From IMG/VR virus record IMGVR_UViG_3300031718_000017, positions 1 to 48,194 of that record: a stretch of DNA of 48,194 nucleotides; one strand, written 5' to 3'. Numbering within the stretch: position 1 is the first letter of the stretch; every line of letters starts with the position of its first letter. The notes below the pieces were generated by a model, which was not told the origin of the DNA, searched no databases, and was given only the letters and a program-made list of their open reading frames with translations. This document shows, piece by piece, positions 15,613 through 29,991 of this stretch. A program made the translations under genes and the position numbers. The stretch is from a virus.

Positions 15613-16928
15613 TGAGCTCTGGACCGTGGCCCTCGAAGCGAGCCTATCCCTATACCCCTGGCAGCGAGAAGCCAAGCGGATCGATTCTGCTGTGGGACGG
15701 AACCACGCCGACCGGAGGCGCGTCGCTCGTCTGCAATATCTTCGGCAACCCGAACAACCCGAGCTCCATCCCGATACGCGAGATTTACTTCCCGGTCATC
15801 CCCGGAGCGATTGACTTCTACCTCGGCTACCAGGGCGTTCCGGCGGGCGTTCTTCCGAACTACACGACGCAGAACGCTGGCTGCGAGAGCGTTGACTTCG
15901 ACGGCGTCGCGTACCTAACGCTCGCGTATCATTCAGGCGTCTACTCAGGCGTTCCGATCTACGTTTTCGTTCGCAGCCTTCCGACCGGTCCGTTCCGAGT
16001 AGGGCCGCTCGGCGCCGCGGTGTCAGCCGTCACCGCTTCCCTACCGCTCGGGATCAACGGACCTTCCGGTACGCCGAACGTCTATCTCAAGCAGAACCCC
16101 TTGCCGATTGCCGATGGCGGCACCGGAACGATGAACCCGCAGCTTATCGCCGGGACGGGAATCACGATCACCGGGACGCCGTTCAACTGGACGATATCAG
16201 CCAGCGGCGGCGGTATCTCGAGCATCGTGGGAAGCGGTCCGATTACGGTTGCCGGCGGCAGCGGACCGACCGCTACGATTGGGCTCAACACGCCTCTCGC
16301 GCTGAACTATGGCGGGACCGGATACTCGTCCCCGGCCCTAACGGCTGGCGCGGGAATAACTATAACCGGCAACATTTTCCAGCCGAGCGGGGCGAACGCT
16401 TGGACGATTGTCAACAGCGGCGTCACCGGGCTGATCCCAGAAGGAAACCCTGGATCTACCTTTACCGGGAACGTGCTGCTCGAATCGCTCGGCGACAGCC
16501 TGAATATCACCAAAGACGTTGCGAACAACGCGATCAACTTCGATCTCGCCAATCCTATCGGGTTCACCATCGCGGTCGTCGCGCATCTCAGTCCTTCCAC
16601 GATCAATGGAGCGGGTCAAACCGTTACGCTTCCATCTCTCCCCGGCTCTGGAACGTGGTACGTGGAATGCATTTGCCACGGGTTTGGTCTCGGAGTACCG
16701 GCGGCGGATTCAACCTGCACAGGCAACACAATTACTCTGACCGGGGCAAACTGGGGAGCCGTGGTTGGAGACGACATTATCCAATGCCAAGGCACGCGGA
16801 CGCTGTACGTTGCTGCCGTAGTGTCCGCTGGATTGCAACCTTCGGTTACGATCACGGGCAGCGGCGTAACGCTCAATAGCGAATCGAGCTTTATCTCGCT
16901 CGGATTCAAAGCTGTGAGAATCACTTAA
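15612..16928 (+). CDS. Tail fibre protein, 438 aa
   Basis: The protein is Gly/Thr/Ile-rich and contains PLPIADGGTGT (about residues 163-173), the P(L/I)xxGGTG(G/A/T) element typical of trimeric phage tail fibres. A second copy, LALNYGGTG, lies about 65 residues later. Each copy is followed by AG(T/A)GITITG, so there is an internal duplication. The N-terminal 130 residues probably attach to the tail, and the C-terminal 130 residues are beta-rich and may hold the receptor tip. Its 3' end overlaps the antisense HNH gene by eight bases. Confidence 0.72.
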   Translation: MSSGPWPSKRAYPYTPGSEKPSGSILLWDGTTPTGGASLVCNIFGNPNNPSSIPIREIYFPVIPGAIDFYLGYQGVPAGVLPNYTTQNAGCESVDFDGVAYLTLAYHSGVYSGVPIYVFVRSLPTGPFRVGPLGAAVSAVTASLPLGINGPSGTPNVYLKQNPLPIADGGTGTMNPQLIAGTGITITGTPFNWTISASGGGISSIVGSGPITVAGGSGPTATIGLNTPLALNYGGTGYSSPALTAGAGITITGNIFQPSGANAWTIVNSGVTGLIPEGNPGSTFTGNVLLESLGDSLNITKDVANNAINFDLANPIGFTIAVVAHLSPSTINGAGQTVTLPSLPGSGTWYVECICHGFGLGVPAADSTCTGNTITLTGANWGAVVGDDIIQCQGTRTLYVAAVVSAGLQPSVTITGSGVTLNSESSFISLGFKAVRIT

Positions 16929-17451
16929 CATGATTCCAGCTTATCCCTCTAACAACAAACCAGACCGCTCCATTCGTGACTCCGAACATATCTGCTATGT
17001 ACTGGTTACTGTGGCCCTCGAAGCTCAACTGACGTATTTCTCTAACTATTTCATCGGTAAACTTGCTATTATGATGCTGCTCGCCACGCTTAGGATTTTT
17101 GGGACCGCAATCACCTTGTCGTCCGCGCGCTCGTCGGTCATCGAGGTTAGTCTGATACGTTCCGAGATACAGATGCTTTGGATTAACGCAAAGCGGAATG
17201 TCGCAGTGGTGGCATATCAACCTACGTTTAGGGATAGTCCCGTTAACAATGGACCACGACACCCTATGAACAAACTGGTATCGGTACTTGCTTTTAGTTT
17301 TCTGGATTCTTCCATAAAGCAGCTTCCCGGAACGAAAGGTCGCTCCGGTCCAGAGCCAGCAGGTTGGAGTCTTGTTGACCCTGCTCCAAAACCATCGAGA
17401 CTCTTCTGGAGTGAACGATACCCGAAGGCTCTTACCGATCATAGTTGTCAC
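16921..17451 (-). CDS. HNH homing endonuclease (free-standing)
   Basis: 176 residues on the strand opposite to its neighbours. Domains in order: CWLWTG and a VHRVSW strand-helix, the HNH core ICHHCDIPLCVNPKHLYLGT (residues 79-98) with zinc-binding Cys, then a C-terminal helix-turn-helix (EIVREIRQLSFEGHSNQYIA) likely to bind DNA. GTG at 17451 or ATG at 17442. It fills the space between the fibre and nozzle genes and is visibly more AT-rich than both, so it is a recent insertion. It would cut copies of this locus lacking it and spread by repair. It does not disrupt a reading frame. Confidence 0.88.
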   Translation of the reverse strand: MTTMIGKSLRVSFTPEESRWFWSRVNKTPTCWLWTGATFRSGKLLYGRIQKTKSKYRYQFVHRVSWSIVNGTIPKRRLICHHCDIPLCVNPKHLYLGTYQTNLDDRRARGRQGDCGPKNPKRGEQHHNSKFTDEIVREIRQLSFEGHSNQYIADMFGVTNGAVWFVVRGISWNHVK

Positions 17452-17477
17452 TTCTCCAAAGGCTATGGGTATTCCTA

Positions 17478-19532
17478 ATGCCGGATCAAGAGATCGTCGA
17501 TCTCCTGGTCTGCGGGCCGTTCACCGGGATTGATACCCGAACGGCGAGCATCTACGCCGATCCTAAGACGGCCACGACGCTTTCCAACGCCGACACCCAC
17601 CGACTGGAAGGCGCGCTCGCCACCGCCCTAGGTCGTTCGATCTTCCTGCAGTTCGAGAATCTCGAAGGCTCCATCGTCCAAATGGCGGTCTACACCGTCT
17701 CGCAGAACCAAATCTTCTACATCGCTCAGGATAACTCAGGCAACATCGTTTACTACGACGTGTTCAACGCGATCTATGGAACGCTCGGCACCTACACGCT
17801 TTTCACGCAGTCGAAGCAAGCCAACGGCGTTCTGTGGATGAACAACGGCCAGCAAATCTTTATGGGCCCGAGCGGCTTAGTCATCGCCCGTTGGCAGTAC
17901 GCGAAGCCCACACAAGGACAATACGGGTATGCGGTGTCGGCCGTCCCGGGAGTCGCAAACCCCCTCGCCCCGGGAATTTACTCTTACGCCTTCGTGCAAA
18001 AGATAGCTCACGTCAACGAGGACTCGACGACCTACCAATACACGACTCCCGAGGGCGCGATCTCTACCGGGCAGCGTAACGATGGCTCGGATATCTTCCC
18101 TTACAATATCGAGAACCAGAACGGGACGAAGGCGACGTTGATTTCAGGAATCTTTGCGGGATACGAGGACGACGGCTCAGCCTTTACGACGCAAGTGTTC
18201 CGTTATTCGACCAACTCCCCAGCCTGGTTCTTCCTCGTAGAGCTGACTAACAATAGCCAATACACCGACAACGCGACCGACGCCTCAATCGCGGGTAATC
18301 AGCAGCTCGTGCTCAACCAGGACCAGCCCCCCACCGGAGGAGGCCAGGGTAAGAACCCGATAGAGTCGCACCAAAACCGGCTGTGGGTCTGCGCTATAAT
18401 CAACGACAGCGGTACGAAGAACTTACCTCAAACTCAAGTGCAGTATTCTCAGGCTGGCGAGCCGTGGAGTTTCGATAAGCTAAACGCGGTGCTTCTCGTC
18501 GAGGATAACGAGACGACGCTAGGAGTGAACCAGCCGGGCATAACTGGCGTTCCGTTCGGGGACTTTCCTTCTGGGCTGTGCGCGGTCGGTTCATCGCTTA
18601 TGGTCTTGCGTCGGCAGACCACAAGCCTTGTCTACGGCGTGGATGAGTCAACGTACCAGCCGCTAAAGATTTTCGCAGACCTCGGCTGCATCGCGCCGCT
18701 TTCGCTCATCAAGGGTAACGGCCTCAACTGGTGGCTATCGGCGCAGGGTTTCTATAGCTTCGACGGCAGCAACGTGCAGTGGATTTCTAAACCGATCTAC
18801 AACCTGCTCCAATCGCTCGGACCAGCAACGCTACAAACGGCGGTGGGAGCGTACAAGGACCTCACTTGTTTTTGGTCGTTCCCGCAAAACTCGGTTTATG
18901 CGGGCGGACTAACGCTACGGTACTACATTCCCACGCAGACCTGGGACGTGTTGCCGTACTCGACCCCGTCGTGCAGCTTCGGAACGTCCTTGCCTAGCGA
19001 TCTCACCCTCTTTCCGTTGAGTATGAACCAAATCGCGGCGGTTCGCCCAAACTCGTTTGCGATCGATCTCTGGCAGACCGGCGATACGGATCTCGGAAAC
19101 GCCATTGTAGCAACGTTCGTTAGCCAGGAGAGCGACACGGGCGAAGGCATGTGGGAGAAGATTTACAAGAACGTCGCGGTCGAGGCTCCGATTCAGCCGG
19201 GAGTCTCCGTCGATATCACGCTCTTTATAAACGAGGTTTCGTATTTCACTTGGCTGGACGTTGACCTCGGGAGCGGGCCTCCGACCAAGGCGTTCAACGT
19301 TCCTAACAATCAGCAGCCGGGAACCGTGTTGCCGACCGGGCAGAGCTTTCCGAACGGCGCCTCAAACCGCGGCTATACTTGCCAGCTCGAACTCGTGCTG
19401 CATAACGCGGCTGGCGCGAGCGGCCCCGCAGTCATCTATCGCGCGAAGGTCGGCGGGACTATGTCGCGCCAGTGGACGGTTCGGTCGCCCGACAGGCCGG
19501 CGATTCCGGAGACGGGGCACAATCAGCCATGA
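17478..19532 (+). CDS. Tail nozzle / tail stabilisation protein
   Basis: A 684-residue protein from ATG at 17478; an upstream TTG at 17445 is less likely because it lies within the HNH gene. The N-terminus (GPFTGIDTRTAS) resembles the opening of podovirus nozzle and P22 gp10-like proteins, and the body consists of repeated beta blades with YxF/WxF patterns, consistent with a beta-propeller. The C-terminus contains a binding-type domain with DITLFINEVSYFTWLDV. It would hang beneath the adaptor and carry the fibre. ATGA overlap with the next gene. Confidence 0.7.
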   Translation: MPDQEIVDLLVCGPFTGIDTRTASIYADPKTATTLSNADTHRLEGALATALGRSIFLQFENLEGSIVQMAVYTVSQNQIFYIAQDNSGNIVYYDVFNAIYGTLGTYTLFTQSKQANGVLWMNNGQQIFMGPSGLVIARWQYAKPTQGQYGYAVSAVPGVANPLAPGIYSYAFVQKIAHVNEDSTTYQYTTPEGAISTGQRNDGSDIFPYNIENQNGTKATLISGIFAGYEDDGSAFTTQVFRYSTNSPAWFFLVELTNNSQYTDNATDASIAGNQQLVLNQDQPPTGGGQGKNPIESHQNRLWVCAIINDSGTKNLPQTQVQYSQAGEPWSFDKLNAVLLVEDNETTLGVNQPGITGVPFGDFPSGLCAVGSSLMVLRRQTTSLVYGVDESTYQPLKIFADLGCIAPLSLIKGNGLNWWLSAQGFYSFDGSNVQWISKPIYNLLQSLGPATLQTAVGAYKDLTCFWSFPQNSVYAGGLTLRYYIPTQTWDVLPYSTPSCSFGTSLPSDLTLFPLSMNQIAAVRPNSFAIDLWQTGDTDLGNAIVATFVSQESDTGEGMWEKIYKNVAVEAPIQPGVSVDITLFINEVSYFTWLDVDLGSGPPTKAFNVPNNQQPGTVLPTGQSFPNGASNRGYTCQLELVLHNAAGASGPAVIYRAKVGGTMSRQWTVRSPDRPAIPETGHNQP

Positions 19533-20059: not shown

Positions 20060-20602
20060 ATGGCCGGACTCGGCGGAATCCTTCAACTTTTGATGAGCGG
20101 CGGAGGCGGCGGCTTCGGCGGCGGGATCTCCGGCTTTCCCGGTGGCGGCACAATGTCGCCCGGGGGAGGCGGAAACTTCGGCGGAATGGGCGGCCTCGGC
20201 GGGCTTCTCAGTATGCTCGGAGGCGGCGGTAACAGCGGCAGCATTATGGGCTCGCCCGGCGCCACGCTCTCCAGCGGCGGAACCGTCATCGGTCGCACCG
20301 GCCCTTCCGGAGTCGGCCAAGGCCAGTTCGGAACACCCTACGGCTACCTCGGATCGATGTTTGGCGGCAACCGCAACGGCGGTGGAAACGCCATGAAGTC
20401 GTCGGGGCAGCAGCACCACGGCGGGGTCGGCGGAGGCGGAGGTGGCGGGGGCTCCATGCACGGCGGAGGCGGGGGTGGCGGCTCGATAGGCGGTGGCGGA
20501 GTAGTTTCTAACCCCATTCAGCGCACCGGACCCGGAATGCCAACGCCGCCAATCCTGGGTGGTGGAGGCTTCGGAGGTCTCCAAGGTATCGCGAACGCGT
20601 GA
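20060..20602 (+). CDS. Glycine-rich virion protein, 180 aa
   Basis: More than a third of the residues are Gly, in runs such as GGGGGFGGG and GGVGGGGGGGG, broken by Ser, Met and Pro. The N-terminus MAGLGGILQLLM is hydrophobic. It resembles low-complexity ejected or internal proteins and the Gly-rich start of the protein at 21033. The opposite strand is also open over a long stretch, but that frame is a Pro/Ala shadow of this composition. The stop overlaps the next gene's GTG. Confidence 0.6.
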   Translation: MAGLGGILQLLMSGGGGGFGGGISGFPGGGTMSPGGGGNFGGMGGLGGLLSMLGGGGNSGSIMGSPGATLSSGGTVIGRTGPSGVGQGQFGTPYGYLGSMFGGNRNGGGNAMKSSGQQHHGGVGGGGGGGGSMHGGGGGGGSIGGGGVVSNPIQRTGPGMPTPPILGGGGFGGLQGIANA

Positions 20603-21033
20603 GCTTCAAACTCGTCGAGCTTTCGGAAGATGATCCGTTCGTTGAATCGTCGCTACGCACGTATCTGTGGAAGTACCACATCGAGCGGGTAGGTCCGCAG
20701 CCCCCGAAGCATTGGTGGGGACTCTACGAGGGCGACAAGTTCGCGCTAGCGTTTGGCTATCTCGATCGTGACGACGGTGGAATCGAACTGACCGACGTCT
20801 ACCTGCATCCGTCCAAGCGCGGCGTCCGTGCCGTGAAGTATGCCGGCGAGACGCTCAAACTGTTTCTCGCGCAAGGAGCTTTCCCGTATTGCATGGCCTC
20901 GACGTTCGCGCGCAACAAACGCGCGCTGAAGTGGGCTAAGGATTATCTCGGCCTCGATCCGGTAATCGCCGGGTTCGTGTTCCCGGGGGCTGCGCTAGAC
21001 GCTGAGCGCCGCGCCGTCTTAGAGGGAGCGTAA
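20599..21033 (+). CDS. GNAT-like acetyltransferase-fold protein (internal virion protein A-like)
   Basis: 144 residues with a GNAT-like pattern: an N-terminal strand-helix, FALAFGYLDRDDGGIELTDV (strands 3-4), then LHPSKRGVRAVKYAGETL, which sits where the acetyl-CoA loop and following helix occur, and a late ASTFARNKRALKWAKDYLG helix typical of the family. Small GNAT-like proteins lie in the same position in T7-like phages (gp13-type internal protein) and in other podovirus ejection modules. It lies beside an ATP-grasp gene. Catalysis is not proven, and it may act only as a structural or assembly protein. Coupled by GTGA and TAATG overlaps. Confidence 0.65.
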   Translation: MSFKLVELSEDDPFVESSLRTYLWKYHIERVGPQPPKHWWGLYEGDKFALAFGYLDRDDGGIELTDVYLHPSKRGVRAVKYAGETLKLFLAQGAFPYCMASTFARNKRALKWAKDYLGLDPVIAGFVFPGAALDAERRAVLEGA

Positions 21034-21962
21034 TGGGCTGGTTCCCCCCGTCCGGAGGCGGCTCAGGCGGAGGAGGCGGTGGTGGTGGCTCGTCGCCTTT
21101 CAACCTTACCAGCATCCTAGGCGGAGTCGGCGGAATCGGCGAGATTATCGGGTCGCTGCTTCAAAGCTCGCAATACTCGCAATTGCTCGGCGGGTTGACC
21201 AACGATATGAACTCGGTTCTCGGGCCAGAGGTCAACATGGGGACCGGGTTCCTGAGCAATTTCAAGAACCAGGTCGCGCCAGAGCTTCAAGGCGTTTACG
21301 GATCACAGACCGCTCTTGGCGGCCAGAGCTACGGAACGGCGGGTAATTACGCGAGCGGCGCGGCGGGCGCAGCAGGCGCGCTCGAAAGCAACCCGTACAT
21401 CGGCGGAGCGACGCCACTTATCGGCGGCCTCGAAAACTACAAGAGCTTTACCCCGCAAGAGGAAGCCGCGCTCACGACCGGAGCGGGTGAGGCGGCCTCC
21501 AGCGCCGCGAAAACGATGGCCGCACAGAGCGGTGGCGTGGCGAATCCCGCTTTGCTCGCCGAGAACCTCGCTGGAGCGGCTGGAACGACGTCGTCGCAGA
21601 CCGCCGTGCAACTCGGGTCGATCGCGTCGCAGCAGCACTTGCAGGCGATGGAGGATGCACTTCAAGGCAAGCTCGCGCAGGGTTCGGAGTACACGTCTGC
21701 CGAGTCGGCGGCCGGCGGCATCTATAGCGGCCTGTCGAGCGAGTACGCAGGGCTCTCAGAATCCGAGTTTACTAACGCGCTTGATTCTCTCGGCATCCAG
21801 TCCTCGGAGCTTTCGACCGGAGCTGGGTTGCTTGGGAACGCGGGCTCGTCAATCAGCAATATCCTCGACCAGGTCTACGGAAGCTCTCAGCAGAGCGGTG
21901 GCGGCTACGGCGGGGTGCTGGGCGGCCTCACGAGCCTCCTGGGGCTCATCCCGTTATTATGA
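21033..21962 (+). CDS. Internal/ejected virion protein, 309 aa, Gly/Ala/Ser-rich
   Basis: TAATG overlap with the GNAT-like gene. The protein begins with a Gly-rich stretch (residues 8-20), then long Ala/Gly/Ser-rich, amphipathic helices with few charges and a C-terminal hydrophobic tail (LTSLLGLIPLL). The composition fits proteins injected with the DNA, comparable to T7 gp14-like proteins that insert in the outer membrane. No motif permits a firmer name. Confidence 0.6.
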   Translation: MGWFPPSGGGSGGGGGGGGSSPFNLTSILGGVGGIGEIIGSLLQSSQYSQLLGGLTNDMNSVLGPEVNMGTGFLSNFKNQVAPELQGVYGSQTALGGQSYGTAGNYASGAAGAAGALESNPYIGGATPLIGGLENYKSFTPQEEAALTTGAGEAASSAAKTMAAQSGGVANPALLAENLAGAAGTTSSQTAVQLGSIASQQHLQAMEDALQGKLAQGSEYTSAESAAGGIYSGLSSEYAGLSESEFTNALDSLGIQSSELSTGAGLLGNAGSSISNILDQVYGSSQQSGGGYGGVLGGLTSLLGLIPLL

Positions 21963-22249
21963 CGACGGAGAACATCGCTTCTCTCGCTCCTGTGCAGTCC
22001 GAGGACTTCCCACCGCTCGAGCTGCTTTACGAGCGCATCGTTCCGCTTGACACGGGCTGCGAACTTTGGCTCGGCTCGAACCATCGCAAGACGGGGCCGT
22101 TCATCAAGTGGCACGGCCACCAAGTGCAAGTGCATCGAGCGCTGTGGTTCTACGAGTATGGTATCCTCCCGGCGTTCCGGCTTATGCGCTTGTGCGAACC
22201 ATCGGCCTGCGTCGCGGTCGTTCACCGGACCGTAGCGGCGTGCGTGTAG
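21959..22249 (+). CDS. Small HNH-like protein, 96 aa
   Basis: ATGA overlap with the upstream gene. The layout follows small HNH nucleases: GCELWLGS (like GCWLWTG), then VQVHRALWFYEYG, then RLCEPSACVAVVHR in place of the usual HxCxxxxCVNPxHL. The first catalytic His is replaced by Leu/Met context and the Asn-Pro is replaced, so it may be a degenerate nuclease. It sits exactly between an ejected protein and the ATP-grasp gene, in frame with the operon. Possibly a decayed homing endonuclease or one repurposed. Confidence 0.55.
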   Translation: MTTENIASLAPVQSEDFPPLELLYERIVPLDTGCELWLGSNHRKTGPFIKWHGHQVQVHRALWFYEYGILPAFRLMRLCEPSACVAVVHRTVAACV

Positions 22250-23578
22250 ATGCGCTTCGCCATGATAGGAGCGGAAGGCCCGGACGTTAGCATGGCCGCG
22301 CGCCTTCTCGATGAGGGCCACGAGGTAAAGTGCTACTGCGATAAGGGAAAGGGCCGCGAGCGCTCGGATACGCACGCGCACGTCGGAGAGGGGATACTCG
22401 ACCTTGAGCAGGACTACGAAGCGTTCGTCGCCTGGGCCGAAGGAGCCGTCGAATCGCTCGTCCTTTTCACAACGTCCGGGCTCGGCGACAAAGCCGACGA
22501 GTTGCGCGACCGTGGCCTCATCGTTGTTGGCGGAGGAACCTTTTGCGACCGGCTGGAGAAAGACCGTCTCTTCGGTCAAGGGATCGCCGAGGAAGCTGGC
22601 TGCCGGATTCCGCCGCATCAGGATTTCAGTTCGCTCTCTCAAGTTCGCAAGTGGGCGACGACGCTAGACCGCGAGGTCTACTTTAAGACTAACTCCTACG
22701 TTAGCGCGGATGCAACCCGCGGCTGCGACACTCCCGATGAGCTCCTGCGCTACATTCAAGAGTTACGTGACCAGGGCGTGCGGGACGCCATGAGCGGGAT
22801 GCTCCAAGACAAGATTCCTGGCGTCGCCTATTCGGTCGGGCGCTGGTGGAACGGGAGAGCCTTCGTTGGACCGTGGGAGTCAACGATCGAGCTTAAAGCC
22901 TACGGCAACGACGATTTCGGACCGAGTACCGGGTGCGCGGCGAACGCCGTGTGGTTCACCGAGGAGAACGAGACTGCGATTCGCTGCGGTTTCGAGAACC
23001 TCGCCGCGCTCTTTCGGGAGAACGACGCGCCGCCGTGTCTCTACGATATCAACGCGATCGTCGATAAGGACGGTCAGCCGTGGTTCCTTGAATGGACTCC
23101 GCGCATGGGCTACGACTCAGAGCCGACCTCAACGCGGCTCATCGACGACCTCGGGGCGTGGTTTTGGTATGTCGGAACGGGCCAAGGCGGCTCAGGCTTC
23201 TCCGACGAGCTCGCCTACGCGGTGCGCCTTTCCATTCCGCCGTATCCGTGGGAGCACGTCGAATGGAGCGACAAGAAAACGTGCGTCGGCGTGCGGATAA
23301 GCGAGTACGGCGATAGCCTATGGTCGGGAAACTTCATCGCTTATCAGGTTCGCGACGTCGGCAAGGGGCTTGAGATGGCGAGCCCAGAGGGGATCGTCGG
23401 GCTCTCGCTCGCGCAAGGAGACAGTCTCACGGAGCTTCACGAAGAGGTCATCGCTTTTGCCGACGATATAGATTGCTCGGGAATTTACTGCCGAACGGAC
23501 GGCGCGGCTAAGATTGCGAAGATAGCAGAGACGCTCAAAGAGTCGGGCGTCGCGATCCACGAAGGGCTGGTTGAATAG
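22250..23578 (+). CDS. PurD-like ATP-grasp ligase, 442 aa
   Basis: Full-length ATP-grasp enzyme most like phosphoribosylamine-glycine ligase. N-terminal Rossmann-like start FAMIGAEGPDVSMA, a linker with LEKDRLF, an ATP-binding YFKTNSY (Lys146), GPSTG (224-228, as in PurD GPNTGG), DINAI, and the metal-binding EWTPRMG (281-287, as in PurD ENxRxGD). A C-terminal domain of about 150 residues follows. ATP-grasp enzymes join a carboxylate to an amine through an acyl phosphate. No other purine genes are present, and the gene lies between virion genes, ATG right after a TAG. It may modify a virion or cell-wall component, or feed purine synthesis; substrate unknown. Confidence 0.8.
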   Translation: MRFAMIGAEGPDVSMAARLLDEGHEVKCYCDKGKGRERSDTHAHVGEGILDLEQDYEAFVAWAEGAVESLVLFTTSGLGDKADELRDRGLIVVGGGTFCDRLEKDRLFGQGIAEEAGCRIPPHQDFSSLSQVRKWATTLDREVYFKTNSYVSADATRGCDTPDELLRYIQELRDQGVRDAMSGMLQDKIPGVAYSVGRWWNGRAFVGPWESTIELKAYGNDDFGPSTGCAANAVWFTEENETAIRCGFENLAALFRENDAPPCLYDINAIVDKDGQPWFLEWTPRMGYDSEPTSTRLIDDLGAWFWYVGTGQGGSGFSDELAYAVRLSIPPYPWEHVEWSDKKTCVGVRISEYGDSLWSGNFIAYQVRDVGKGLEMASPEGIVGLSLAQGDSLTELHEEVIAFADDIDCSGIYCRTDGAAKIAKIAETLKESGVAIHEGLVE

Positions 23579-25542
23579 TGGCTACGTTCTCGGGCTTACC
23601 AAATCTCGCCGGAGCTACAGAAAATCCGGTCTTGGGTATCAGCAGTGCGTTGGCTCAAGCTCCCGTCGCAGCCGCTCAACAAAACGCCGCTCTTAACGAA
23701 GCTGGCTGGCGCGCACTCGCGCCCTACGTCACGGCCATGTCGCGCAATCCGAACCTCGCGCAGAACAACACGTTCACCGGACAGATGCAGCGAATCGCGC
23801 AAATGTACCGGATCAGCGGCCCGATGCTCGATCAGGCTATTCAGCAGGTTCGTTCGCAGCTTGGGGGGACGGGCTCGGCAGGGATGCAAGGCGCTGTCGG
23901 AGGCGGCGCCGTGCAGACGGGGTCGGAAGCGGTAAGCCCCTCGTCACCCGGAACAGCAGCATCATCCGGAGCACCGACTCCCAGCGCTCAATCGGCGTCG
24001 GGTTCCTCATCCCCACAGGCTACCACGAAACCCGTTGGCAGCGAACCGGACCTCGGCACGAAGTGGCAAGACCCGCGCTTGAAGCAGCTCGCCGACGTCT
24101 ACAACCAAGACCTCGAAGCTGCGGCGCGCACGCCAGCGCTCACCGGGCATCCCGATTTTCACCAAAAGATCGTCAAAGACGGGCGCGCGGTGGGGCGAAC
24201 GAACAGCGAGATCGCGGCGGACGTTAAGGCGTATCAGGTAAAGGCTGGGAAGGGTCCGCATCCCGAGACGATGCCGCCGGATCAGGCTCAGGTTCGCACG
24301 CAACGGCAACAGGCTCTCCAGGGAGCGTCATCTGCAGCGTCACCTCCCACGACTCCGTCTGCGGGTTCCAGTGCGTCACAGCCGGGTCAACCCGGCGCGT
24401 CACCACAAGGCGCTCCACAGCCGCAAGTTTCCGCCGTGCCGCCAGGAACGCCTGGTGCGGGCGCCGCGGGACCGACGAGCTACGAAGGACCGCACGCGCT
24501 TCCGCCAGCGATGCAGGGCCTCATGGCCGCCGCGGGCGTCACGCCGACCGGGATGCAAGCCTACGGAACCTCACCGATCGAGGCGGGCATGGCGCAGCAA
24601 ATATCGCAGGCTCAGCCTTCGGATAGGCCGCAACTCTACGCCGCGGCGATGATCGATCCGACGACCGTGCCGAGCGACATAATGAACGCCAAGCCGGTGA
24701 TGACCGAAGCGCAGCGCGGAATCGAATGGAATCGCGTGTACGGCGAGGCGATGGGACTCGTTAAGCAGGGCCAAGACCCGACCGGGATCATCCAAGGGGC
24801 GGCAGCGGCTGGAGTTATCACGCCCGATATGGCCGCGGCGTTCTTGCAAGACCCTGGCGTTATGCAGCCTCTACGCGGAGCCGCGCAGCAGAACGCGCAG
24901 ACTCTCCATGATAACGGCTTACTGAAAGGTGCGCGCTATCAAAACTATCTGTCGTCTATAGCTACCGGAGCGACGACGCGGGACCTGAACGAGGCCCGCA
25001 TCAAATATCTCGGCCAGCAAACTACGTGGTTCGGATCAGCAGCGCAGGCCCACGTAGCCGAAGCGTGGGCGTCGGTGAACCGCAACAACGCCGAGGCTGG
25101 AGCGATTAAAGACGGTTCATGGTTCCAGCAGAACACCGCTCAGAACCGAAGCGTTACCGACCAAATACGAGACGCGCAGAGTCTATTATCTAGCTCGCAG
25201 ACGAACTACGACACGATTCTAAACTATGGAAAGTCGCTGCTCTCGAACTTCCAAGATCCGACCTCAGCGACGATGCCGGATGGTACGCCATACGCGCAAG
25301 CGCTCCAGAACGCGCAAGAGAACCGCGACGCGGCTCGACAGGCGCTTCAGTCTCTCACTAACGGCGCCGCAGGACGCACCGTTGATAGCACGGTGAACCC
25401 GGGAGCGGGTGGTGCGAAAGTTAAAGGCAGCGGTGCTCCGTTCCAAGCGCCTCCGGGATGGAAGGCTGAGAAGATCAACGGACACTGGGCGATCCGAAAT
25501 ATCTCGAATCCGAATCAGGTTCAGTATTGGCAGGGCCAGTAA
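23578..25542 (+). CDS. Internal/ejected virion protein, 654 aa
   Basis: GTG overlaps the preceding TAG. The N-terminal part (1-110) is helical and Gln/Ala-rich. Residues 110-310 are dominated by Gly, Ser, Pro, Gln and Thr with PAxP-type linkers. The C-terminal half is helical with many Gln/Asn/Ala residues and ends in a basic-aromatic segment (PGWKAEKINGHWAIRN). The layout of disordered linkers between helical blocks fits a protein stored in the head and ejected ahead of DNA. No enzymatic motif seen. Confidence 0.65.
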   Translation: MATFSGLPNLAGATENPVLGISSALAQAPVAAAQQNAALNEAGWRALAPYVTAMSRNPNLAQNNTFTGQMQRIAQMYRISGPMLDQAIQQVRSQLGGTGSAGMQGAVGGGAVQTGSEAVSPSSPGTAASSGAPTPSAQSASGSSSPQATTKPVGSEPDLGTKWQDPRLKQLADVYNQDLEAAARTPALTGHPDFHQKIVKDGRAVGRTNSEIAADVKAYQVKAGKGPHPETMPPDQAQVRTQRQQALQGASSAASPPTTPSAGSSASQPGQPGASPQGAPQPQVSAVPPGTPGAGAAGPTSYEGPHALPPAMQGLMAAAGVTPTGMQAYGTSPIEAGMAQQISQAQPSDRPQLYAAAMIDPTTVPSDIMNAKPVMTEAQRGIEWNRVYGEAMGLVKQGQDPTGIIQGAAAAGVITPDMAAAFLQDPGVMQPLRGAAQQNAQTLHDNGLLKGARYQNYLSSIATGATTRDLNEARIKYLGQQTTWFGSAAQAHVAEAWASVNRNNAEAGAIKDGSWFQQNTAQNRSVTDQIRDAQSLLSSSQTNYDTILNYGKSLLSNFQDPTSATMPDGTPYAQALQNAQENRDAARQALQSLTNGAAGRTVDSTVNPGAGGAKVKGSGAPFQAPPGWKAEKINGHWAIRNISNPNQVQYWQGQ

Positions 25543-25545
25543 CAA

Positions 25546-28500
25546 ATGGCCGCCGGAACGCTTCCCGGCTTCGGTTCCGCTCCACCGCAGCAAGGGCAAC
25601 AGTCCGATCAGCTTAGAGGCTTCGGACCCGGACCTCCTCAGCCAAAATCGCTACCGGGTTTCGCGTCATCACCGCGCGGGACCGCAACTCCAACCCCGAC
25701 CTCCGGACTCAACTGGGGAAAATACACTCCGCCGCAAACCCCGAACTTCTCAAGCGCCGGGCAGAAGCTCTTACCGTTGCTCGACAAGGTCGCTGACCAG
25801 CGCGGAGTCCCGCGCAGCGTTATGCGGACGGTCTATGCAATCGAGTCCGGCTGGACTCCCGATCCGCAGCATTCGGGCGACCCGGCGGGCGCCTACGGAC
25901 CAGGGCAAATCGAAGCGTCGAACGTCGCGTCGCAAGGCAAAGGCTTTGACCGAACCAACCCCGAGCAAGCCTTCAACTATATGGCTGGCTCGTTATCGTC
26001 GGCCTACAAAAAATATAACGATTGGGGTTTAGCGGCTGGAGCCTACAATACCGGCGGCGGTGCGATCGATCAATGGCTCCACGGCGGCGGAAACCTCGAC
26101 GACGTAACTGCCGTAACCAATAAGATCACCGGATCAAAGAGCAACGACGTGCGCTCCTACATGCTTCGCGTTCGAGCGGCGTTTGAGGGCGAGCAGTTCG
26201 ACAGCTATCACAAAGCTCAGCAGAACTCGCAGCTAGACGCCGTGCATCGGCGCGTGGCGGCCAGTATCGCAGCGGCAAAGCAAACCCTGGGGCGGATGAC
26301 CACGATGGATGGCAACGGCCATTATCAGCTAAAGCAGGCGTCGCCGCTCATTGACGTGCAGGGACCGCTCGCGGCGATTGGGTCCTACCTCGAGACGATC
26401 ACGCTGGCGTCTCCGTTCCTCGGAGCGCTCGCTGGGCGCAAGCCTGTCCCCGAATCATACGACGCGAATCTCTCGCGGCAGTCGGCGGGCGTCGAAGCCT
26501 TTGGAAAGCATCTCGCCGAGAATCCGTGGGTGCAGCGCCTCGGTCCTCCGGCTGAGATCGCGGCGCGGCTCATCCAGCTTGGCGGCTACATAGCGCCGCA
26601 GCGCACCGGGTTATTCGCACAGGCTCGCAGCCTTGGGGATATCGCCGCGGCGGAAGGCGACGTCGGCCACGCCTTCATGCAAGGTCCGTCGCATCTCGCG
26701 CAAGCTGAGCAGCGGTACTCCATCGGCTCGCCCGGTTTCATCAAGGCGACGACGGGGAGCGAGCACCATCCTCGGTTCGACGCAGCGCTTCGGACGGCGT
26801 TCGACCTCATCTCGCCCGGAACAGGCTTGATCGGTGACGGGCTAAAGCTGATTCGAGGAATCGCGTCTAAAGCTCCCGCGCTCGAGCGGGTGATGGTCGA
26901 CCTCGCTCAGCATGGCGACGTCATTCGGAACTCTCCGGCGGTGCGAGGGCTCGTCTCGATGTTCACGCCGAGCGCCGTCCTGCGCTATGCGGCCAAGGAC
27001 CTCGGGCTAAACCCCGAGGAGGCGGTGCGACTCGGGCGCGGCTGGGTGTCATCTCAGGCTCGCGCTGGCTACAGCGCGTCGCTCGCTCGCCGGGATATCT
27101 TCAGCGACACGACCCGCGAGCAGGCAGTGGAGATCGAGCGCCGGTCCGAGCAACTCGGCGGAGACCCCAAGGCTGGGGCTCCGAACAAGAACGTCCCCGA
27201 GCCGACCAAGGGACTCTCCCTCGACGAACGAGCGGCGCGGCACCGCGGCACGATGCTGGCGATGGATGACGACAGCCTGGCGCACGCGCTCATCGACGAG
27301 AACCGCATGTTTGACACCTCGCGCTACACCTACCGCGGCGGCCCCCGCGGCTCGGTCTATCGGTTCGATGGTGCCTCCGACGTTATGGACTACTACGGAA
27401 CGGGAGCGCGCGGCGGGCGCGGCGCGGGCAAGGGTGCGGATACGGCGGCGGTCGGCAAGCACAAAGCCTACGAGACCTACGACGAGGCGCAGGCTTCCGG
27501 GAACCTCTCCTCTCGCTACGATCCCCGCGATAACCTCCAGCGCTTCCTCACGAACCGCGGTACGCGCGTCGGCCTTGAGTCCACCCTGCACGATCTCTAC
27601 AGCGCCGGCTTCGGGCGCGAGCTGACCTACACCGACCCCAAAAGCGGTGCGCCGCTCGCGGGCAGCCTGGGAATCTCGACCAGCGGAAAGGGCGCGGCGG
27701 GCATGGCCGCGGCGAAGAACCTCGGCAAGCGCGCGGACGAGGGCGCTGCGCTCGTCGCCGGAGCGAAGGCCGCGGGGATACCCCTATCGGATATCAACTC
27801 CATCCGGCGCGCGAACCCGCAGGCCGTTCAGCGGCTCATCAACGAGGCGCAGAAGGCGTCGAAGGTCGCCGGGGAAGCCGCCGCTGGCGAGTCCGCCAAG
27901 GGCGAGCGGCTCGTAGGGCAGATGAACGTCCGCGAGGACCAAGCCAAAGCGGCCAGTGATTTCCACGCCGAGGCGAGCAAAGCGTCCGCAGCAGCACAGC
28001 GAGCGGCCCAGCGTGCCACTGGGGCAGCGGCGGAGTCCACGCGCGCCTCTAAGGCCGTCGAACACGCCGACCTCGGCAGAAGCGTCGCAAAGGCCATCTA
28101 CGGCCCCAATTCAAAGCTCGAGCGGCGCATATCCGCGCTGGGCGACCAACTCGACCGGGCCGTGGTCAACAAGGCCAAAGCCGACAAGCTCCAGGCAGCG
28201 ATCAACGAACACCTCGAAGCGCACCAGTATAAGACCTTCGACCGCATCCAGAAGAACGCCGAGGCGGCGGAGCGGCATTCCGGCTTCGTCCCGGCCGGCG
28301 ACCTCGCGCGCGATCTGAAGGTCTCCCTCCCGTCGCTCAAGCCGTATTTCTCCTACCACTCCGGGGTCGCCAAGTTTTTGCGCGATATGGGCGCCACTGG
28401 CGAGGAGGCCGGCGCGTGGTCGCAGCTCATGGACGGCTTCAACAAGCTCTATCGGGTCGGGATCATCTACAACCCTGTGCGCCACCTCTTCATCAATATG

Positions 28501-29991
28501 CCGACGAACTATCTCGCGTCGGGCGGCAAGCCGATCAACATTCTGCGGGCCTTCGTCGACGACGGCTACGTCTCGGGGAAGTGGACGGAGGAGCTCGAGA
28601 AGCGCGGCGGGATCAAACGAATGGGCGACCAGCCGATGTTCGGCGGCTCAGTCGGAACGTCGTTTGACAATCCAGGCTTCTGGCGCGACCTCGCATCCAA
28701 AAAGATACCAGGCTCGTCCGTGTTCAAGGACGCCTACGCGAAGGCCGCCGACGTGGCCGGAAAAGCGCCCGCCGACGAGTCTCGCCTGATACAAACTCTG
28801 TCGGCTATGGGCGAGACCGGGAACACGATGCTCTCGCACCTCTGGCAAGGGAACCAGCGGCTCGTGTTCGATTGGGGCGAGACGCGGCTCGCGACCGCGC
28901 GCTTTCGGGAGATGGTCGAGGACGAGGGCCTCACGATGGACGAGGCCGCCAACAAGGTCTCGGGCATCTTCGGCTCAGCGCTGGACCTGTCGAAAACCGG
29001 GATCGACAACATGCTCCACCGGGCGCTGCTTTTCTACCCGTGGCTCAAGGCGACGATTCCGCTAATGATGCGGGCGATGTACCGCGCGCCGTCCTACGTT
29101 TGGACGCCCTACGCGCGATCTCAGGATTGGAACCGAGCGACGCAAGACCCGCGCTGGCGGGCGCAGACCGAGGGAACGTACCACCTCGGAAACTGGAACG
29201 GCAAGGACGCTTATATGTCTTGGCCTGGCCCGCAGAAGTATCTCGAGGACGTGCTGGCCGTATTCGATCCCGCAGGCGGAGACACGACTGCCGGGCTCAC
29301 GCCTCGGATGACGAAGATGCTGAATCTCGCGACCTCGGAGCTAAAGCCGATGCCAACCGGGATACTCGCCGCGGCTGGTGCGACGGAGGTTGGCAAGCCA
29401 GCCGAACCCGGGCCTCCGAACTTTCAAACGCTTTGGGACAACGCCGCGCCGCCGCGCGTGCAGCTCTCGCAGGCGACGACGTCGCTCTTGCAGCGCCTTC
29501 CGTTCGGGCAAATCATCTCGGGAACCGTCGACAACGTGAACAGCGTTTTCAAAGGCGACCCTAGCGCCTTTCTCTCGGCCTTCTCACTCATTCCGTATTC
29601 TCGACCGTCGCCGCAGGTCGAAAAGGCTCAGCGTGAGATGTTTCGCAAATATACCGGAGACTCAGGAAAGATCGAGGCAGCGATTCGAGACGTTCACACG
29701 AAGCCGGGCCTCCCGGAATTTAAGGAGCTTAGGACCGCGGCTCTCCGTGACGCCCAAATGATCTCTTACGTCCAGATGAAGGCGCACGCCCAACTCGTCG
29801 ATCCCTCCGTGACGCCGAAGGATCGCAAGGCGATCACGGCTCAGACGCAGACCCTCATCAAGCAAATCCAGATGGAGATGCAGGCGCTCAACACGGGCGC
29901 TCAGCGCATCCAAATGCTACAATCAAACCCGAGCGGCGCTCCGCCATCCCCGGCCTTCGTACCAGGCTTTGGCGCGTCGCCACCGCCATAG
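25546..29991 (+). CDS. Giant internal virion protein with lytic transglycosylase domain
   Basis: 1,481 residues, the longest gene here. After a Gly/Pro/Gln-rich leader, residues 70-190 form an SLT-type lysozyme fold: AIESGW (catalytic Glu100), AYGPGQIEASNV (116-127) and AAGAYNTGGGAI (163-174). This would cleave the glycan strand to let the ejection channel cross peptidoglycan. The remaining ~1,290 residues are helical, with Ala/Lys/Glu coiled-coil stretches (about 755-930) and a region near 950-1,230 with hydrophobic helices (for example FYPWLKATIPLMMRAMY) suited to channel formation. The architecture matches T7 gp16-like ejection proteins. ATG at 25546, three bases after the previous stop. 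Confidence 0.85.
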   Translation: MAAGTLPGFGSAPPQQGQQSDQLRGFGPGPPQPKSLPGFASSPRGTATPTPTSGLNWGKYTPPQTPNFSSAGQKLLPLLDKVADQRGVPRSVMRTVYAIESGWTPDPQHSGDPAGAYGPGQIEASNVASQGKGFDRTNPEQAFNYMAGSLSSAYKKYNDWGLAAGAYNTGGGAIDQWLHGGGNLDDVTAVTNKITGSKSNDVRSYMLRVRAAFEGEQFDSYHKAQQNSQLDAVHRRVAASIAAAKQTLGRMTTMDGNGHYQLKQASPLIDVQGPLAAIGSYLETITLASPFLGALAGRKPVPESYDANLSRQSAGVEAFGKHLAENPWVQRLGPPAEIAARLIQLGGYIAPQRTGLFAQARSLGDIAAAEGDVGHAFMQGPSHLAQAEQRYSIGSPGFIKATTGSEHHPRFDAALRTAFDLISPGTGLIGDGLKLIRGIASKAPALERVMVDLAQHGDVIRNSPAVRGLVSMFTPSAVLRYAAKDLGLNPEEAVRLGRGWVSSQARAGYSASLARRDIFSDTTREQAVEIERRSEQLGGDPKAGAPNKNVPEPTKGLSLDERAARHRGTMLAMDDDSLAHALIDENRMFDTSRYTYRGGPRGSVYRFDGASDVMDYYGTGARGGRGAGKGADTAAVGKHKAYETYDEAQASGNLSSRYDPRDNLQRFLTNRGTRVGLESTLHDLYSAGFGRELTYTDPKSGAPLAGSLGISTSGKGAAGMAAAKNLGKRADEGAALVAGAKAAGIPLSDINSIRRANPQAVQRLINEAQKASKVAGEAAAGESAKGERLVGQMNVREDQAKAASDFHAEASKASAAAQRAAQRATGAAAESTRASKAVEHADLGRSVAKAIYGPNSKLERRISALGDQLDRAVVNKAKADKLQAAINEHLEAHQYKTFDRIQKNAEAAERHSGFVPAGDLARDLKVSLPSLKPYFSYHSGVAKFLRDMGATGEEAGAWSQLMDGFNKLYRVGIIYNPVRHLFINMPTNYLASGGKPINILRAFVDDGYVSGKWTEELEKRGGIKRMGDQPMFGGSVGTSFDNPGFWRDLASKKIPGSSVFKDAYAKAADVAGKAPADESRLIQTLSAMGETGNTMLSHLWQGNQRLVFDWGETRLATARFREMVEDEGLTMDEAANKVSGIFGSALDLSKTGIDNMLHRALLFYPWLKATIPLMMRAMYRAPSYVWTPYARSQDWNRATQDPRWRAQTEGTYHLGNWNGKDAYMSWPGPQKYLEDVLAVFDPAGGDTTAGLTPRMTKMLNLATSELKPMPTGILAAAGATEVGKPAEPGPPNFQTLWDNAAPPRVQLSQATTSLLQRLPFGQIISGTVDNVNSVFKGDPSAFLSAFSLIPYSRPSPQVEKAQREMFRKYTGDSGKIEAAIRDVHTKPGLPEFKELRTAALRDAQMISYVQMKAHAQLVDPSVTPKDRKAITAQTQTLIKQIQMEMQALNTGAQRIQMLQSNPSGAPPSPAFVPGFGASPPP

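Follow-up and report, generated by a model that had tools for sequence, protein, structure and literature searches.

Why would a virus keep a full-length relative of the purine-synthesis enzyme PurD among the genes for its virion? The question is raised by one gene of IMG/VR virus record IMGVR_UViG_3300031718_000017, whose 48,194 nucleotides were analyzed throughout and are referred to here as the window. The original prediction had described a 442-residue enzyme with GPSTG and EWTPRMG motifs, and this is borne out: ORF 22250-23578 on the plus strand runs uninterrupted through 442 codons to its stop, with the GPSTG motif at residues 224-228 and the EWTPRMG motif at residues 281-287. Its ATG directly follows the stop of the preceding ORF (TAGATG) and its stop is overlapped by the GTG of the following ORF, so that it sits against both neighbors as genes of a compact operon do. 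A second contig (L001) encodes a protein 96% identical to the window ligase, with a pairwise dN/dS of 0.074, and the GNAT-like gene of the same pair gives 0.014; in six further pairs within the ligase family the ratio is 0.04-0.15. Values for the nozzle gene and for the gene of the 654-aa protein were left out, frame or length being mismatched there. Given these low ratios, the ligase and the GNAT-like gene are therefore both maintained proteins.

The surroundings of the ligase are indeed virion and ejection genes (Table 1), with the 695-aa virion-type protein upstream and the 1481-aa SLT protein, a match to the PHROG 'internal virion protein with endolysin domain', downstream. The ligase also lies two genes past the GNAT-like gene, as had been noted, the second of the two intervening ORFs being HNH-like. 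This HNH-like ORF, which separates the internal-virion gene from the ligase gene, is shared with L001 and absent from L002, and L057 has a Gln-rich ORF where the window has its Gly-rich 180-aa ORF. The order GNAT-like protein, protein of about 300-390 aa, ligase, two larger virion proteins is common to the window, L001, L002 and L057. Elsewhere in the window, a second HNH-like ORF was seen by eye on the minus strand (16921-17451), and the ORF set includes a Cpn10 (GroES-like) co-chaperonin gene; a co-chaperonin is annotated near the head-to-tail gene of phage MW202796.1.

Table 1. The ligase gene of the window, its candidate active-site segments and the neighboring genes.
Feature	Position	Strand	Basis
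695-aa tail/stabilization-type virion protein, upstream of slot	17445..19532	+	internal-virion/structural PHROG matches
Gly-rich 180-aa ORF, probably disordered, directly before GNAT	20060..20602	+	composition
GNAT-like protein, 144 aa, in slot before pilot-protein gene	20599..21033	+	fold matches, position; dN/dS 0.014
309-aa Gly/Ala/Ser-rich protein, likely small internal virion protein equivalent	21033..21962	+	judged by position and composition
HNH-endonuclease-like ORF of 96 aa, probably a mobile insertion	21959..22249	+	PHROG comparison
PurD-fold ATP-grasp ligase of non-PurD family, 442 aa	22250..23578	+	fold, PurD comparison, purifying selection
K146, ATP-grasp lysine	22685..22687	+	invariant in phage, cellular and PurD sequences
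D266-I-N268	23045..23053	+	family-invariant; PurD has Tyr/Phe and Gly/Ala there
E281-W-T283-P-R285-M-G287	23090..23110	+	replaces PurD E-F-N-x-R-F-G-D-P-E motif
654-aa internal-virion-type protein	23578..25542	+	position; weak match to PHROG of unknown function
1481-aa internal virion protein with SLT (lytic transglycosylase) domain	25546..29991	+	domain and PHROG

The window ligase matched no Pfam and no PHROG model, and its relatives match the PurD domains GARS_A and GARS_C of Pfam. An AlphaFold2 model of the window protein, built with 66 family sequences, reached a pLDDT of 92.1 and a pTM of 0.91. When it was compared with the PDB by Foldseek, the 15 top-ranking matches were GAR synthetases without exception (E 2.6e-26 to 2.2e-22, TM about 0.7), with biotin carboxylase and PurK ranking below them. 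These matches make the ligase a PurD-fold ATP-grasp enzyme along its whole length, and model and matches together uphold the full-length PurD-like assignment made at the outset. Membership of the ATP-grasp superfamily is supported by the best of these matches (E 2.6e-26) and by K146, E281 and R285, all three invariant, with D266 in addition.

A PurD fold does not make a PurD. Against TIGR00877, the NCBIfam equivalog model whose 288-bit cut-off served as our threshold for PurD membership, the window ligase scores 27.2 bits, about tenfold under that value; phage relatives score 74-97 bits, cellular relatives 87-101 and Salmonella PurD 627. In a maximum-likelihood tree, made by a quick method and with long stem branches, PurD is split from the joint phage and cellular ligase family with an SH-aLRT of 100. 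The grouping with PurD that had been held open is therefore not what the tree gives, the ligase falling in a clade of its own.

The comparison of active sites that had been suggested was run on 32 phage, 49 cellular and 20 PurD sequences, and PurD-invariant residues turn out to be replaced in the family, several by residues that are themselves invariant. All phage and cellular sequences share E103, R106, K146, E214, D266, N268, E281, T283, R285, R415 and D417, of which K146, E281 and R285 are common to PurD as well. The 20 PurDs invariably have Asn283, Asp288, Glu290, Arg382 and Asp214 (window numbering) and nearly always Lys106 and Gly268. Residue 283 is Thr in 81 of 81 phage and cellular rows and Asn in 20 of 20 PurD rows; this Asn is a Mg ligand in E. 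coli PurD. Residue 288 is Trp or Tyr in nearly all family members, and the Arg of the PurD GGRVL motif is replaced. Neither the PROSITE-type R-[LF]-G-D-P-E signature nor the Mg-ligand Asn of E-x-N is found in the window ligase, which reads E-W-T-P-R-M-G-Y-D-S. Asp266, in turn, probably sits where many other ATP-grasp enzymes carry an acidic metal ligand. What is kept from PurD/GAR synthetase (TIGR00877, PF01071 plus PF02843) is thus the whole fold, the ATP-grasp Lys, the metal-site Glu, the catalytic Arg and the C-terminal domain, whereas the Mg-ligand Asn has become Thr, RFGDPE and the GGRVL Arg are lost, and Asp266 and Asn268 are gained. By score, residues and tree alike, the ligase family is, as far as sequences can tell, separate from PurD.

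This bears directly on purine supply, which had been among the roles first considered. A true PurD that raises purine synthesis during infection, as an auxiliary metabolic gene, would fit the full-length fold and the weak full-length similarity, but it would have to do so at 27 bits against a cut-off of 288, with the Mg ligand, RFGDPE and the Arg gone, and from outside the PurD clade. In addition, a Pfam search of the 59 ORFs of the 48,194-bp record, which is possibly incomplete, found no purine gene besides the ligase, as had been claimed, and in 16 of 28 cellular genomes checked a true PurD, over the cut-off, stands beside a family member (the remaining genomes are mostly small CPR or DPANN genomes with the variant only). 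These results contradict the purine role, and we regard it as very improbable.

There is some precedent for PurD-like proteins of another kind. In Haloarcula marismortui and Halorubrum lacusprofundi, Brown et al. 2011 (PMC3261824) noted two 'extra' PurD-like proteins (Hlac_1553 and rrnAC0307), which they judged not to be GAR synthetases. As described there, they resemble our family in lacking the conserved RFGDPE Asp and the Mg sites of PurD. The likeness is one of description only, and the passage on them describes no function, partners or phage copies.

The family is widespread. At least 560 stretches of cellular DNA with the family motifs IDVNCI and PLEFTxR came from a scan of GTDB genomes, with CPR, DPANN, Acidobacteriota and others among the carriers, and in a sample across phyla 31 of 279 genomes have the ligase. 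The phage form is found in at least 357 IMG/VR contigs (another scan gave 49), as against a single GenBank phage record, MW202796.1, in which the gene is unannotated. Because these phage counts take in related contigs, cluster counts are the safer figures, and at 60% identity the retained phage loci fall into 24 clusters. The ligase is immediately preceded, in 14 of 21 clusters, by a gene on the same strand that encodes at least 370 aa, and the large proteins flanking phage ligases match PHROGs for internal virion protein, transglycosylase and lytic tail proteins. The exception is L082, where the ligase lies outside the ejection block, apparently near terminase/portal-type genes.

Some records in this collection call for care. 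L139 (OQ572412.1), L138 (OR845008.1) and AGRM01000005.1 are either 'phage' records lacking annotation or contigs of bacteria within the phage collection; they encode PurD-like proteins or true PurD and may be host contamination. An 870-aa ORF of L105, considered as a fusion of virion protein and PurD-like ligase, was rejected, its N-terminal half being an Arg/Ala-rich out-of-frame extension with no homologs.

If the ligase is not for purines, its neighbors may say what it is for. The GNAT-like protein of the window matched no Pfam and no PHROG model. The top 50 fold matches of its low-confidence model (pLDDT 57) are all GNATs, at E values of 4e-3 or higher, and hhalign against the phage GNAT family gave a weak E of 0.041 with shallow profiles; the GNAT assignment, weak by itself, is supported by the fold matches and by position. 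In relatives, proteins at the same position exceed the Pfam cut-off for Acetyltransf_1 (L004, E 2e-6; L130, E 5.5e-8). This position, between the tail/stabilization gene and the small internal-virion gene, is a slot for small group-transfer enzymes. In the 64 ligase loci whose upstream sequence extends for 6.5 kb or more, a GNAT fills it in 43 (13 of 18 clusters), as detected with models built from these same loci, another enzyme or a cupin in 8, and nothing recognized in 13.

The non-GNAT occupants are cupin–SET fusions (PF00856; L042:3165-4031, L051:3056-3910, L090:2123-3262), Asp/Asn-hydroxylase-like proteins (PF05118), lone cupins and a sulfotransferase-like type, named by eye from a P-loop-like motif without Pfam support. 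SET methyltransferases inside a phage virion block look unusual, and a 354-aa protein (L118:1110-2174) with matches to two slot families, the sulfotransferase-like one and the GNAT one, is a possible fusion. The hydroxylase-like gene usually overlaps the GNAT gene as a pair (L104:3146-3727, 12 other loci, and L286-L365, mostly without ligase); carriers in the range L286-L365 and others include contigs with IMG-isolate-style names. Where enough downstream sequence was available, 12 of 38 hydroxylase-slot loci have a ligase and 24 of 38 a GNAT without ligase, so that slot enzymes do not need the ligase. The same arrangement of a GNAT between tail/head-closure and internal virion protein genes is seen in the Vibrio Zobellviridae ICP2 (gp8) and Vibrio phage 1.264.O, in which no PurD-like ligase was found. 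The slot is therefore a general podoviral feature to which the ligase has been added in one large subset, and with GNATs so common there in ligase-less podoviruses, the pairing seen in phages is by itself weak support for a pathway of two enzymes.

Cells provide a second, separate view of the pairing. In the Nanoarchaeota locus L162 a single 601-aa protein joins GARS_A, GARS_C and Acetyltransf_1, that is, a PurD-like–GNAT fusion. Among 30 loci of the phylum sample with 1.5 kb flanks, 10 have a GNAT adjoining the ligase and 4 a SET gene, the order in L271 being ligase–GNAT–SET, and FemAB/LPG-synthase-like GNATs are among those adjoining cellular copies. In a whole-genome search, 9 of 33 SET matches and 8 of 33 Acetyltransf_6 matches are found no farther than 3.5 kb from the ligase gene, where 0.23 and 0.18 would be expected under a null with rounded genome sizes, although some of these genomes had first suggested the two families. 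Nanoarchaeota genomes that were not used for the choice of families gave 4 of 18 for SET (p about 1e-5) and 4 of 9 for Acetyltransf_6 (p about 5e-7). The recurrence of SET and GNAT therefore means that two protein- or peptide-modifying classes associate with the ligase in cells and phages. The GNATs next to the ligase in cells and in phages do not form one family, and cooperation is therefore by fold class, not by orthology.

Across the ligase family as a whole, then, the GNAT link is not accidental, given the fusion, the cellular neighbors and the 43 of 64 phage loci. The original idea of an ATP-grasp/GNAT pair is partly supported by these three observations and is weakened where the phages alone are concerned, since slot GNATs also occur in ligase-less podoviruses. 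It could still be asked whether the two window genes are unrelated passengers in an insertion-tolerant block, the ligase having a function of its own. They are separated by at least one gene, the HNH insertion indicates that the block takes cargo, and the GNAT slot exists without the ligase. A chance association nevertheless sits poorly with the archaeal fusion and the non-random GNAT and SET adjacency in cells, with a GNAT in 13 of 18 ligase clusters, and with an order kept in the window, L002 and L057, and we consider it improbable.

Iyer et al. in 2009 reportedly proposed systems in which ATP-grasp and acetyltransferase-fold enzymes act on peptides or metabolites. The ligase and GNAT described here resemble that amidoligase idea of an ATP-grasp enzyme working with an acetyltransferase fold. 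The notion of the pair is thus older than this work, Iyer 2009 being cited in PMC10580990 and PMC7824862. Phages are also known to encode other ATP-grasp enzymes: LUZ24-like phages have Amidoligase_2, COOH-NH2_lig and a short ATP-grasp protein (PMC3890496), but these are early genes and not PurD-like, whereas the window ligase lies in the virion block. The window ligase has no Pfam match to Amidoligase_2 (PF12224) or COOH-NH2_lig (PF14395), and with gene context differing too, homology to these early enzymes was rejected.

What the pair acts on is the harder question. Modification of host proteins (ribosome, translation factors or RNA polymerase), late or after ejection, would have precedents in the R2K ATP-grasp ligases of jumbo phages, proposed to modify host proteins (PMC7824862), and in the Rac GNAT of phiKMV-like phages, shown to do so (PMC7552054). 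GNAT and SET, the partner classes seen in cells, are both of a kind that modifies proteins, and the cellular ligase copies require a cellular substrate. The ligase is placed in the late virion block, however, and not in an early one, and the window protein has no reported similarity to R2K/CDC123 models, so that we view a host target as unlikely, if worth keeping in mind.

A small amide- or peptide-like metabolite, made by the ligase and capped or transferred by the GNAT for modification of DNA bases or the envelope, seems rather unlikely as well. PurD itself makes glycinamide ribonucleotide, and FemAB/LPG-synthase-like GNATs stand beside cellular copies. The hydroxylase-like slot protein belongs to PF05118, a family with lipid A hydroxylases among its members. 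In the relative L082 there is a gene of the Mom family (L082:2274-2975, PF25680, E 3e-45), and the adenine modification made by Mom is glycinamide-like, which may be coincidence. Because Mom occurs only this once, the base-modification link was set aside; the ligase of L082 also sits outside the ejection block. The only modification gene seen in the window is a cytosine DNA methylase, and the SET partners point to proteins.

We tentatively favor, at somewhat less than an even chance, a model where a protein or peptide, most likely one of the ejected virion proteins, is tailored by a cassette of the non-PurD ligase and the GNAT. The ligase would be an active, amide-forming ATP-grasp enzyme of PurD fold, translated together with the late virion and ejection genes. 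Like PurD, it would use ATP and Mg to turn a carboxylate, probably that of an amino acid, into an acyl phosphate, and would pass this to an amine held in an acceptor site different from that of PurD. The cassette would consist of the ligase and the adjoining GNAT, to which sister phages may add a SET, hydroxylase-like or sulfotransferase-like enzyme. Because the ligase is co-located with ejection-protein genes, an internal virion protein of the same transcript is the leading candidate target. In a broader context, it is tempting to speculate that a previously undescribed PurD-derived family, present in DPANN, CPR, other bacteria and a large uncultured phage group, acts together with GNAT and SET enzymes to modify proteins or peptides, a system that phages apply to their ejected proteins; we hold this wider reading to be possible but doubtful.

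Beyond the single locus, these results affect how genomes are read. Our search of open-license papers found no description of a PurD-like family with GNAT and SET partners, and PurD Pfam models match most of the family members tested. Members are thus liable to be annotated as PurD, which would credit CPR and DPANN genomes lacking a detectable true PurD with purine synthesis and phages with an auxiliary metabolic gene for purines. With GNAT and SET partners that recur, one of them fused, this distinct ligase family offers a direct handle on its chemistry. And should an ejection protein prove to be the target, a case for which we found no description in the open-license literature, phages would enzymatically tailor the proteins that they send across the host envelope.
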